Source: Granulimonas faecalis
Lineage (GTDB): Bacteria; Actinomycetota; Coriobacteriia; Coriobacteriales; Atopobiaceae
Length of the DNA: 64,000 bases
Assembly: GCF_022834715.1 (NCBI RefSeq)
Contig: NZ_BQKC01000001.1
Coordinates: 532,501 to 596,500, forward strand
Direction of reading: 5' to 3'
This document shows positions 57,911-62,007 of the stretch, piece after piece. Numbering within the stretch: position 1 is the first letter of the stretch; each line of letters opens with the position of its first letter. Under the pieces are notes generated by a model, which saw only the letters and a program-made list of their open reading frames with translations, was not told the origin of the DNA and made no database searches. The position numbers and the translations under genes are program-made.

Positions 57911-60145
57911 TTACCCCTCTTTGGGGCCGCCTGTCCTGCCGCGTCGGCGCATGCGCCCCGAGATGCGCCCGGCGGCGGTCGCCGCGATGACGATGACGCC
58001 GGTGATGGCGCCGCCCCTCCCGCCGCGGGACCCGGGCGCGGCCTGGGCCGCGGTGCCGGGGGCGGTCGGGGCGTCGTCGGGTTCCTCGGGGCCGTCGGCG
58101 GCGTCCCCGGCCCGGGGGGCCTCCCCGTCGGCGGCCTCCACGTCGCCGCCGAGCTCCCCCTTCACGTCGGGGTCGAGGGCCAAAAGCGTGAGGTCGCGCT
58201 CCACGGGCTTGCCGAAGTCCCAGAGCAGCCCCGTCGCGTCGTCCACCCAGTCCGTGCCCCCGTCGTCGGGGCGGTCGAGCGTGGCGCCGGGCTCCACCAG
58301 GGTCACGGCGGGGTCCGAGCCGTCGGCGGGCAGGAGCCGCACCTCCCATACCGGGGCGGCCGAGAGGCGGCGCTCCTCGCTGTCGAGCACGAAGCGCGAC
58401 GCCGTGCCGGCCACGCCCTCCTCGCACCAGCCGAGGGCGGCCAGGGAGGGGTCGTCGGGGGCGTCGAGGGTGAAGGTGCCCCGCGACCCGTCGTCGAGGT
58501 AGTTGTAGAAGTCGTTGGCCGTCTCGGCGGTGTTGCGCCCCACGAGGGCGCCCATCACGCTCGCGGTGCCGGCGTTGAGGATGCCCCCGCCGCGTCGCGC
58601 GGAGTTGTGGGCCACGGTGCCGCCCGCAAGCTCGAGCGAGCCCGTGTTCACGACGCCGCCGCCCATGCCGTCCACGGCGTTGTGGACGATGATGGCGCGC
58701 TCCGCCTCCACCGAGCCCCGGTTGTAGAGGGCGCCGCCGTTCATGGCGGCGTTGTGGGAGAGGGCCGAGGCCCCCAGGCGCACGGAGCCCACGTTGTAGA
58801 TGCCGCCGCCCATGCCCTGGGAGGCGTTGTGGACGATGGTGGCCCGGTCGCAGGAGAGCAGGCCCGTGTTGTAGATGCCGCCGCCGCCGAACTGCGTGGA
58901 GTTGGCGCAGTTGTCCACGATGTCGCCGGTGACGATGTCCACCCGGCCCCGGGCGTTGTAGATGCCGCCGCCGTAGAGGGCGCGGTTGTTGGAGAGGCCC
59001 GCGCCGTCCATGTCCACGGTGCCGGAGCGGGTGTTGTAGAGGCCTCCGCCGGTGTAGAGGGCGCGGTTGCCCGCGATGATGCCCTCGCCCAGGACCAGCC
59101 TGCCGGTGTTGTAGACGCCCCCGCCCGACCCCTGCACGCCGTCGGCGGCGTTGCCCACGATGGAGCCGCCCTCCACGGAGGCGGTGCCGCGGTTGTAGAC
59201 GCCGGCGCCGGAGTCGGCGGTGTTGCCCGAGACGACGGCGGAGCGCTCGTGGAGCGTGCCGGCGTTGAAGACGCCGCCGCCGAAGGACGCGCGGTTGTCG
59301 GTCACGTCGCCGCCCTCGAGCATCACGGTGCCGGTGCTGTAGACGCCGCCGCCGCGGTGGAGGGCCCGGTTGCTGGCTATGCGCCCTCCGGAGACCTCCA
59401 CGAGGCCGCGGCCCACGCAATAGACGCCGGCCCCGTGCACGGCGCGGTTGCCCTCGACGGAGCCGCCGGTCATGGAGAGGGTGGCCTTGTCCACGTAGAC
59501 GCCGCCGCCGTAGAGGACGCCGTCGCCCTCCTGGCGGCAGTTGTCCTGGACCGCCCCCGCCTCGATGAGGAGGCAGGCACCGTCGAGCACCTGGACGGCC
59601 GCGCCCGGCGCAGCCTCGGTGCCGAGGCTCGTGCAGCCGGAGACGCGGCCGCCGCCCATGCGGGCCACGGCCCCCTGGCCGGAGACCCGGAGCGCGCAGG
59701 GGGAGGGCTCGGCCTCGGAGGGTGCGACGACCCAGCCGTCCAGGGCCGAGCAGGGGCCCAGGTTGACCGTGCCGTGGCAGTCGACCAGGCACGACGACGG
59801 CGCCGGCGCCCCGGGAGCGCCGGGTCTCGCCAGGAGGGCGCAGTCGAGGTCGAGGCGGCCGCCGCCGTCCACCGAGAGGAGGGGCGCGGTGCTGTCGCCC
59901 GGGGTCACGAGGAGCGAGCCGGCCAGGCGCAGGCGGCCCCCGTCGGCCACAGAGAACATCTGCGACACGCCCGGCGCGAAGCGCACCGACGTGGCGCAGC
60001 CCATGACGTCGAGGCTGCGGCCGGGGCCCACGGGGACGGGGCCGTCGACCACGACCGACGCAGGGAGGGCCGCCGCGGCGCAGCCGCCCTCGGCCACGAG
60101 GGCGCGCAGCTCGTGCCAGGTGGAGACGGGGACCGGGGCGCTCAT
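57911..60145 (-). CDS. Right-handed beta-helix repeat protein with C-terminal membrane segment
   Basis: 744 residues. From about residue 200 to 560 it has repeats of 20-30 residues with GGGVYN/GGGIYN turns and NRAL/HNA steps (for example GGGVYNTGRLVLGEGIIAGN), the pattern of pectate-lyase-type parallel beta-helices in surface adhesins. A Listeria-Bacteroides-type repeat follows (WEVRLLPADGSDPAVTLVEP to WDFGKPVERDLTLLALD). After an Ala/Pro/Asp linker, GGAITGVIVIAATAAG and a basic tail could anchor it in the membrane. No LPXTG and no N-terminal signal peptide. ATG at 60145 overlaps the stop of the Gfo-MurB gene. Confidence 0.8.
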   Translation of the reverse strand: MSAPVPVSTWHELRALVAEGGCAAAALPASVVVDGPVPVGPGRSLDVMGCATSVRFAPGVSQMFSVADGGRLRLAGSLLVTPGDSTAPLLSVDGGGRLDLDCALLARPGAPGAPAPSSCLVDCHGTVNLGPCSALDGWVVAPSEAEPSPCALRVSGQGAVARMGGGRVSGCTSLGTEAAPGAAVQVLDGACLLIEAGAVQDNCRQEGDGVLYGGGVYVDKATLSMTGGSVEGNRAVHGAGVYCVGRGLVEVSGGRIASNRALHRGGGVYSTGTVMLEGGDVTDNRASFGGGVFNAGTLHERSAVVSGNTADSGAGVYNRGTASVEGGSIVGNAADGVQGSGGGVYNTGRLVLGEGIIAGNRALYTGGGLYNTRSGTVDMDGAGLSNNRALYGGGIYNARGRVDIVTGDIVDNCANSTQFGGGGIYNTGLLSCDRATIVHNASQGMGGGIYNVGSVRLGASALSHNAAMNGGALYNRGSVEAERAIIVHNAVDGMGGGVVNTGSLELAGGTVAHNSARRGGGILNAGTASVMGALVGRNTAETANDFYNYLDDGSRGTFTLDAPDDPSLAALGWCEEGVAGTASRFVLDSEERRLSAAPVWEVRLLPADGSDPAVTLVEPGATLDRPDDGGTDWVDDATGLLWDFGKPVERDLTLLALDPDVKGELGGDVEAADGEAPRAGDAADGPEEPDDAPTAPGTAAQAAPGSRGGRGGAITGVIVIAATAAGRISGRMRRRGRTGGPKEG

Positions 60146-62007
60146 GACGAGAAGGGTCCCACGAACCGCACCTCGGGCTCGAGTTCGACGCCGAAGCGCT
60201 CGCGGACGGTCTCGCGCACATGGGCGATGACGGCGGCGACGTCGGCGGCGGTGGCGCCGCCCAGGTTCACCACGAAGCCCGCGTGCTTCTCCGACACGGC
60301 TGCACCGCCCACGGTGTAGCCCTTGAGGCCGGCGTCGCCGATGAGCTTGCCGGCGAAGTGCCCCTCGGGGCGCTTGAAGGTGGAGCCGGCGCTGCCGAGC
60401 TCGAGGGGCTGCTTGGACGCGCGGCGCTCGGTGAGGTCGTCCATCTTGGAGCGGATCGCGTCCGCGTTGCCGGGGGCGAGCAGGAACGTGGCCGACACCA
60501 CCGTGAGGCCGTCGGTGCGCACGCGGCTCGTGCGGTAGCCGAGGGCGAGGTCGGCGGCGGCGACGGTCTCGGTGTGGCCGTCGGGGAACACGCACTCGCA
60601 CGACTCGAGGACGTCGGCGATGCAGCCGTCGTAGGCGCCGGCGTTCATGAAGACGGCGCCACCCACGGTGCCCGGGATGCCGCAGGCGAACTCGAGGCCC
60701 GTGAGGGAGAGGGCCGCCGCCATCTCGGAGGCCTCCGGGAGCGAGACGCCGGCCTGGCATGTGACGCGGCAGCCGTCGTGGGAGACGTCGTCGAGGCCGC
60801 GGGTCACGTCCACCACGACGCCGCGGTAGCCGGCGTCGGAGACCAGCAGGTCGGAGCCCTTGCCCAGGATGAGGTGGGGCGCGCCGTGCTCGCGGAGCAC
60901 ACGGAGGCAGGAGGCGAGTCCGCCCGCGCCCCGCGGCGTCACGAAGACGTCGGCGGGGCCGCCCAGGTGGAAGGTCGTGTGGGCCGCCATGGGCTCGCCC
61001 AGGGCCACGCAGTCCTCGCCGAGCTCGGCGCCCAGGGCCTCGGCCACGGCGTAGCGGTCGTAGCCCGACGCCATGGCGTCCACGATACGGGCGCAGCGCA
61101 GGGAGTCGGCCAGGGGCATGACGGGGCTCTCCTGGGCGCCGGAGAGCAGGGAGTCGGTGAACGAGGCGATCTCGGCCGAGAAGTCGTCGCCGGGCAGCGG
61201 GCACTCGACGAGCTCGTCGTCGGCGCCGTCGCGGCGCAGCACGGCGCGCTCCGGGCGGGTGACCTCCAGCACCTCGATGGAGCCGAGGCTGCCGGAGATG
61301 GTGACGCGGGAGTCGTCGGCGGCGTCGGCCGAGACGTCGACCGTGCACGCCACGTCGCCCAGGGTGAACTCGCAGCGGTCGGCGCGGTCCACCTCGTCGC
61401 GGTAGGTGTGGGAGCACGCGGAGACCGATATGGCGCCCCCGGCGTACTCGTCGGCCCAGGCGGCGCCGTAGATGCCGAGGTCGAGGGCCGCGCCGCCGCC
61501 CACGGGGTCGTTGTACCAGTGGCCGTCGCCGTGCTCGATGGTGCGCCTGAGGGTGAAGGCCACGGACCCCACCTCGCCGATGAGGCCGTCGACGACGAGG
61601 CCGCGGACCTTCTGGTAGAGCGGGGTGAAGCGCGGCTTCATGGCCTCTACGTAGAGGCGGTCGTGGTCCACGGCCGCCTGGGCCACCCGGGAGAACTCGG
61701 CCGCGGTGAGGGCCGCGGGCTTCTCGCAGAGCACCGCCTTGCCGGCCTCGAGGGCCTTGACGGACCACTCGGCATGCATGGACGCCGGCAGCGCTACGTA
61801 GACGGCGTCCACGTCGTCGCGGGCGAGCAGGGCGTCGTGGTCCGCGCAGGCGTCGCAGCGGAACTCGGAGGCGAAGGCCTCCACGTGGGCGGGGGTGCGG
61901 CCGCTGGCCGCGACGAGGGTGCCCCGGGGCTCCCCCGCGAGGGAGGCGGCGAACCTCTTGGCGATGGACCCTGCGCCGAGGATGCCCCACCTGACCGTAT
62001 CTGACAC
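60142..62007 (-). CDS. murB: Fusion: Gfo/Idh/MocA oxidoreductase + UDP-N-acetylenolpyruvoylglucosamine reductase (MurB)
   Basis: 621 residues with two enzymes. Residues 1-325: Rossmann loop RWGILGAGSIAKRFA, the EKP motif VLCEKPAALT (E95-P97) and the substrate-side GGGAALDLGIYG, a Gfo/Idh/MocA dehydrogenase of unknown substrate. Residues 326-621: MurB, with HTTFHLGGPADVF, LGKGSDLLVSDAGY, FACGIPGTVGGAVFMNAGAY, YRTSR at 491-495, catalytic-type S542 in GSAGSTFKRP and E612 in LEPEVRFVG. MurB makes UDP-MurNAc. The joint is tight, without a long linker. Start GTG at 62007; promoter at 62137-62164. Confidence 0.9.
   Translation of the reverse strand: MSDTVRWGILGAGSIAKRFAASLAGEPRGTLVAASGRTPAHVEAFASEFRCDACADHDALLARDDVDAVYVALPASMHAEWSVKALEAGKAVLCEKPAALTAAEFSRVAQAAVDHDRLYVEAMKPRFTPLYQKVRGLVVDGLIGEVGSVAFTLRRTIEHGDGHWYNDPVGGGAALDLGIYGAAWADEYAGGAISVSACSHTYRDEVDRADRCEFTLGDVACTVDVSADAADDSRVTISGSLGSIEVLEVTRPERAVLRRDGADDELVECPLPGDDFSAEIASFTDSLLSGAQESPVMPLADSLRCARIVDAMASGYDRYAVAEALGAELGEDCVALGEPMAAHTTFHLGGPADVFVTPRGAGGLASCLRVLREHGAPHLILGKGSDLLVSDAGYRGVVVDVTRGLDDVSHDGCRVTCQAGVSLPEASEMAAALSLTGLEFACGIPGTVGGAVFMNAGAYDGCIADVLESCECVFPDGHTETVAAADLALGYRTSRVRTDGLTVVSATFLLAPGNADAIRSKMDDLTERRASKQPLELGSAGSTFKRPEGHFAGKLIGDAGLKGYTVGGAAVSEKHAGFVVNLGGATAADVAAVIAHVRETVRERFGVELEPEVRFVGPFSS

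Follow-up and report, generated by a model that had tools for sequence, protein, structure and literature searches.

The 64,000-nucleotide stretch of Granulimonas faecalis DNA analysed here (the window) encodes two enzymes in a single gene: a 621-residue reading frame (60142..62007, minus strand), delimited by its open reading frame and profile matches, joins an N-terminal Gfo/Idh/MocA oxidoreductase to a C-terminal MurB. The two-enzyme fusion is real, and the explanation that we favor for the whole, with a probability of about 0.6, is that it originated once, that its MurB half is the sole competent copy in its hosts, and that the two halves carry out separate activities on one tether. MurB, which is needed by every walled bacterium and is an essential antibiotic target, uses NADPH and FAD to reduce UDP-GlcNAc-enolpyruvate to UDP-MurNAc.

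Domain Architecture and Distribution of the Fused Gene

The fused gene starts with GTG, downstream of a Shine-Dalgarno-like sequence (GGAAGGTAGGAATC), and its frame is free of internal stops, with a single stop at the end; GC content by codon position is alike in both halves (0.72/0.51/0.97 and 0.73/0.52/0.97). The Gfo/Idh/MocA half (61072..62007, minus strand; residues 1-312, or about 1-315) matches two Pfam families above cut-off, GFO_IDH_MocA (residues 5-119; PF01408, 88.2 bits) and GFO_IDH_MocA_C3 (residues 131-245; PF22725, 45.3 bits). The MurB half (60142..61071, minus strand; residues 313-621) consists of an FAD-binding domain (FAD_binding_4, residues 353-481; PF01565, 82.9 bits) and MurB_C (residues 518-616; PF02873, 130 bits), likewise above cut-off, and its residues 336-618 match the NCBIfam equivalog for UDP-N-acetylmuramate dehydrogenase (NF010480; 344.7 bits, cut-off 259). 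The initial annotation had described, in one 621-residue frame, a full NAD(P)-type oxidoreductase with an EKP motif and a full MurB with its catalytic motifs, and this description holds for both parts: the two Gfo domains are accompanied by E95-K96-P97, and FAD_binding_4 and MurB_C by R492, S542, and E612. With two full-length domains above the curated cut-offs and the active-site Arg, Ser, and Glu, the C-terminal half has the sequence features of a MurB.

An architecture search for Gfo/Idh plus MurB, as the initial annotation had proposed, found the same arrangement and the same joint in nine of the 140 Atopobiaceae genomes searched, the window species counted (G000, G002, G019, G022, G063, G065, G066, G067, and G073). 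Identity to the window protein over the full length is 62-63% in G073 and G022, 62% in G002, and 47-49% in G019, G065, and G063. In G066 the gene is split by contig ends: contig 37 begins with residues 2-243, and contig 7 ends with residues 243-619. The G067 gene (L068:1142-3433) carries a low-complexity insert of approximately 90 residues, which interrupts the Gfo half near residues 227-231 and keeps the frame. No further full-length fusion was found in 398 genomes of the class (E 1e-100) or 396 of the phylum (E 1e-95), limits that more distant fusions could escape. Plasmid records contain no full-length match, and viral contigs contain no relative of MurB. The recurrence of the full-length fusion in separately assembled genomes indicates that it is not an assembly error and is more than chance. 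We found no Gfo-MurB fusion in the literature searched, a body from which most subscription papers were out of reach.

The Joint

The joint (61048..61083, minus strand; residues 309-320, VDAMASGYDRYA) lies at the same point in all fused proteins, where the end of the last Gfo helix passes straight into the N-terminus of MurB. Joint sequences such as IVDAMASGYDR, ILDALVSGFDR, IIDAVRSGYDR, and ILDACASGFDR can be compared with the C-termini of unfused Gfo proteins (LDAVRAAF or similar) and with the N-termini of unfused MurBs (MS(D/E)SGYD or similar); the comparison indicates a head-to-tail joining of two almost complete genes, in which the first stop codon, the spacer, and the start of MurB disappeared.

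In the window species, residue 312 is encoded by ATG, about where an unfused MurB would start. This could be taken as a sign that the MurB part is made as a protein of its own by internal initiation, or that a sequencing error joined two genes, and we regard either as highly improbable. No missed stop or frameshift, which the initial annotation had named as grounds for rejecting the fusion, is visible at the joint, and the same frame is open across it in eight other genomes. Moreover, the position of residue 312 is occupied in the other fused species by Leu, Val, or Cys, never by Met, and no Shine-Dalgarno-like sequence precedes the ATG in the window species. In the full-length AlphaFold model, built with few MurB alignment rows, the pLDDT of MurB is mostly below 50 and the structure of the joint is of low confidence.

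Locus and Origin of the Fusion

In other genera the unfused murB is found in a conserved locus, between a DUF711 gene and an ECF transporter, and the fused gene occupies this same locus. In the window, the ECF transporter S component (PF12822; 57195..57764, minus strand) marks the ancestral locus by its conserved place beside murB. The gene that follows the fused gene (57911..60145, minus strand) overlaps its stop by ATGA and encodes a 744-residue repeat-rich protein without a Pfam family; such a gene follows the fused gene in G022 as well (L023:10071-12413). The model for a riboflavin S component scores just over its cut-off for L023:12635-13246 and L033:11876-12475 and just under it for the S component of the window; as MurB is an FAD enzyme, a link with a riboflavin-like transporter component is possible. 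In an unfused relative, the DUF711 gene and murB are separated by a gene (L033:7595-8656) whose product has a beta-lactamase-like domain (PF13354), and weak homologues of this protein are found near murB in several genera.

Related genomes with separate genes, a second finding that the initial annotation had said would speak against the fusion, do exist, but the separate state is the ancestral one and is no evidence against the fusion. The closest Gfo genes of these relatives sit away from the murB locus and have no shared neighbours, and a genome search found no second close Gfo in the fused genomes. We propose that an orphan Gfo gene would have been joined head to tail before a pre-existing murB, with loss of the intervening stop and start.

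The number of such events turns on one species, G064, in which murB is unfused and no close Gfo homologue was found. In an rpoB tree, which leaves out G063 and G066 as they have no full rpoB, the fused species and G064 form one clade (SH-aLRT 98.4), with G064 nested in it (p-AU 0.019 against a placement outside the g20 fused species). A single clade of fused Gfo domains is not rejected in a quick Gfo tree (p-AU 0.39), nor is a clade of the fused MurBs and the G064 MurB in the MurB tree (p-AU 0.65). A clade of fused MurBs only is rejected (p-AU 0.0011), the MurB of G064 adjoining those of the g20 fused species. Because the joint is shared and in view of the rpoB, Gfo, and MurB trees, a single fusion at the base of one Atopobiaceae clade, followed by loss or replacement in G064, appears most likely. 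The MurB of G064 has an ancestral-looking N-terminus and is without an insertion common to the g20 fused MurBs, so two separate fusions are possible, as is a gene replacement in G064. The fusion has been kept across four genera, and this persistence could mean that the tether has a function.

The Fused MurB and the dcw Copy

The active site of E. coli MurB contains R159, S229, and E325. The corresponding residues of the fused protein, R492, S542, and E612, are invariant in all eight fused MurBs compared, and E612 aligns with residue 325 of 1mbb in an ungapped match. Ser229 is the general acid of the E. coli enzyme, and the Ser and Glu of Pseudomonas aeruginosa MurB bind nicotinamide and enolpyruvate (PMC3689657).

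The initial annotation had suggested looking for a second, stand-alone murB. The window genome has one (L027:8794-9711; contig 1, about 1290793-1291710, minus strand) in the dcw cluster, where it lies downstream of murC and next to the ftsQ/ftsZ region, and other fused species have it too (L246, L247, and L248). Its catalytic Ser and Glu have been replaced, by Glu and Gln, respectively, which very probably leaves the fused copy as the one that works. At the Ser position, G002 has Glu, and G022 and G073 have Gly; all four fused species with two copies have Gln in place of the catalytic Glu. Despite the lost Ser and Glu, the dcw MurBs of fused species are full length and in frame. No second murB copy was found in the other five fused species, and none of the g20 fused genomes, two of which are 98% complete, contains a second MurB_C. 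Because the dcw MurB has lost its catalytic residues in each of the fused species with a second copy, we predict that, throughout the fused species, catalytic competence very probably resides in the fused MurB alone.

In the unfused genera, most of the dcw copies examined keep both Ser and Glu; the exceptions are G012 (Ser to Glu), G027 (Ser to Ala), and G024, in which the gene is broken. Several unfused genera have no second murB copy. This pattern suggests that the Atopobiaceae depend mainly on the MurB of the DUF711/ECF transporter locus and that the dcw copy decays repeatedly.

The Gfo Half

The N-terminal half has the hallmarks of the Gfo/Idh/MocA family, a GxGxxA Rossmann domain, a C-terminal alpha/beta domain, a catalytic Lys, and a second acid/base residue. 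Its motifs are a Rossmann GxGxIA (G11, G13), the EKP (E95-K96-P97), and GGGxxLDxGxY (D176, Y180), and K96 and Y180 are invariant in the eight fused proteins and 44 relatives. The AlphaFold model of this half has a pLDDT of 96, and its best Foldseek match is KijD10 (3rc1; TM 0.89, 30% identity), a stand-alone NADPH-dependent 3-ketoreductase of antibiotic sugar synthesis, followed by dihydrodiol dehydrogenase, aldose-aldose oxidoreductase, and glucose-fructose oxidoreductase. KijD10 has the same fold and the same catalytic Lys and Tyr positions: K96 and Y180 align with its K102 and Y186, for which the mutants K102A, K102E, and Y186F have been deposited. We therefore assign the Gfo half, from its conserved residues, to the intact Lys/Tyr-type oxidoreductases of the KijD10, dihydrodiol dehydrogenase, and glucose-fructose oxidoreductase group. 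We do not class it as a KijD10-type reductase of nucleotide-linked 3-keto sugars, as its agreement with KijD10 is confined to the fold and the catalytic residues. It scores below the cut-off of every NCBIfam Gfo equivalog model, including those for UDP-GlcNAc 3-dehydrogenase (NF040723; 58.1 bits against 450) and myo-inositol 2-dehydrogenase (TIGR04380; 88.7 bits against 355).

Between G022 and G073, the one pair for which dN/dS was usable given the near-saturated codons of these GC-rich genomes between genera, dN/dS is 0.03 for the Gfo half and 0.11 for the MurB half, indicating purifying selection on both. The invariance of K96 and Y180 together with this strong constraint suggests that the Gfo half is probably an active enzyme. 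It probably acts on a sugar or a similar carbonyl, and a few residues suggest that it probably uses NADP(H), although R37 is replaced in G022 and G073.

The stand-alone Gfo genes of relatives revealed no common neighbour. Two related Gfo proteins (L172:1006-2466 and L087:1131-2585), those whose extensions were scanned, carry an HbpS-like domain (PF03928) at the very point at which MurB is joined in the fused proteins. C-terminal extensions at this point are also found in L173, L179, L182, L186, L088, L092, and L093, and such extended Gfo proteins occur in both the Atopobiaceae and the Erysipelotrichaceae.

Relationship Between the Two Halves

The occurrence of HbpS-like domains as fusion partners within the same Gfo subfamily argues against a role specific to MurB, and the use of the same attachment point argues for two tethered, separate activities. 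In the most likely arrangement, both halves would be active without coupling: they would be made in equal amounts from one message and held together, with no direct transfer of substrate. The initial annotation had offered NADPH channelling, a UDP-sugar substrate, or a tie between wall synthesis and another pathway, and we found no support for any of these. The relatives of the Gfo half are orphan genes without conserved neighbours, some of them fused to HbpS-like domains, and G064 has neither the Gfo domain nor a close homologue.

Since MurB needs NADPH, a shared cofactor pool is plausible, and the Gfo half could oxidize a sugar or alcohol and so regenerate NADPH close to MurB. MurB uses NADPH and not NADH (PMC3689657), the best structural match of the Gfo half is an NADPH enzyme, and the fusion has persisted in four genera with both active sites intact. 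However, MurB is a ping-pong enzyme: the cofactor dissociates, and cofactor and substrate use one common site (PMC3689657), so that a tether would give little. Moreover, no close Gfo homologue accompanies the MurB of G064, and the Gfo relatives are stand-alone or HbpS-fused. We consider coupling through NADP(H) unlikely. A broader proposal is that this clade of gut actinobacteria, by attaching its sole working MurB to a sugar dehydrogenase, has linked the committed step of wall synthesis with another metabolic signal, by way of NADP(H) or a sugar ligand, and retains the old dcw MurB as a non-catalytic protein next to MurC and the division genes; we hold this to be unlikely.

The two halves could also perform two steps of one pathway, the Gfo half acting on a wall nucleotide sugar, for example by reducing a 3-keto UDP-amino sugar. 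The closest structure, KijD10, is a 3-ketoreductase crystallized with a TDP ligand, and MurB too handles a UDP-sugar. At 30% identity, however, KijD10 is hardly closer than dihydrodiol dehydrogenase and the aldose oxidoreductases, the UDP-GlcNAc 3-dehydrogenase model is far below its cut-off (58 of 450 bits), and no partner gene for such a step is found near the stand-alone Gfo homologues, making this reading quite improbable. There is a similarly small chance that the Gfo half is a structural part, a module for dimerization or folding whose catalysis is irrelevant. The solved relatives include a dimeric enzyme, and the full-length model, of low confidence, shows a single helix that continues from the end of the Gfo half into MurB. 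Against such a role, the catalytic Lys, the Tyr, and the cofactor motif are invariant in all fused proteins, and the Gfo half is under strong constraint in the closest pair. The balance of evidence favors two tethered, separately working enzymes.

Comparison With Known Systems and Significance

The fused MurB has FAD_binding_4, MurB_C, and the Arg, Ser, and Glu in common with MurB of the Staphylococcus aureus and Listeria monocytogenes type (1hsk, 3tx1), from which it differs by the N-terminal oxidoreductase and by the place of its gene, outside the dcw cluster and beside an ECF transporter. Like the MurC-MurB fusion ASB36453.1 (PMC5814848) and the MurC-Ddl of Chlamydiae, it is a Mur enzyme fused in frame to another enzyme; those proteins join two steps of one pathway, whereas here the partner is a Gfo dehydrogenase without a known wall step. 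No MurB fusion to a partner outside the Mur pathway was found in the literature searched. KijD10, for its part, stands alone, and the Gfo half is only 30% identical to it. The Gfo-HbpS-like proteins L172 and L087 belong to the same Gfo subfamily and have the same attachment point after the last helix, with an HbpS-like partner rather than MurB.

If the Gfo half is unrelated to the wall, this would be a near-neutral gene fusion that has survived on an essential gene. The dcw MurB of the fused species, full length and without its catalytic residues, may be a naturally occurring Mur pseudoenzyme beside MurC and FtsQ/FtsZ. As its hosts probably have no working MurB other than the fused one, removal of the Gfo half would be a clean test of the importance of the tether.
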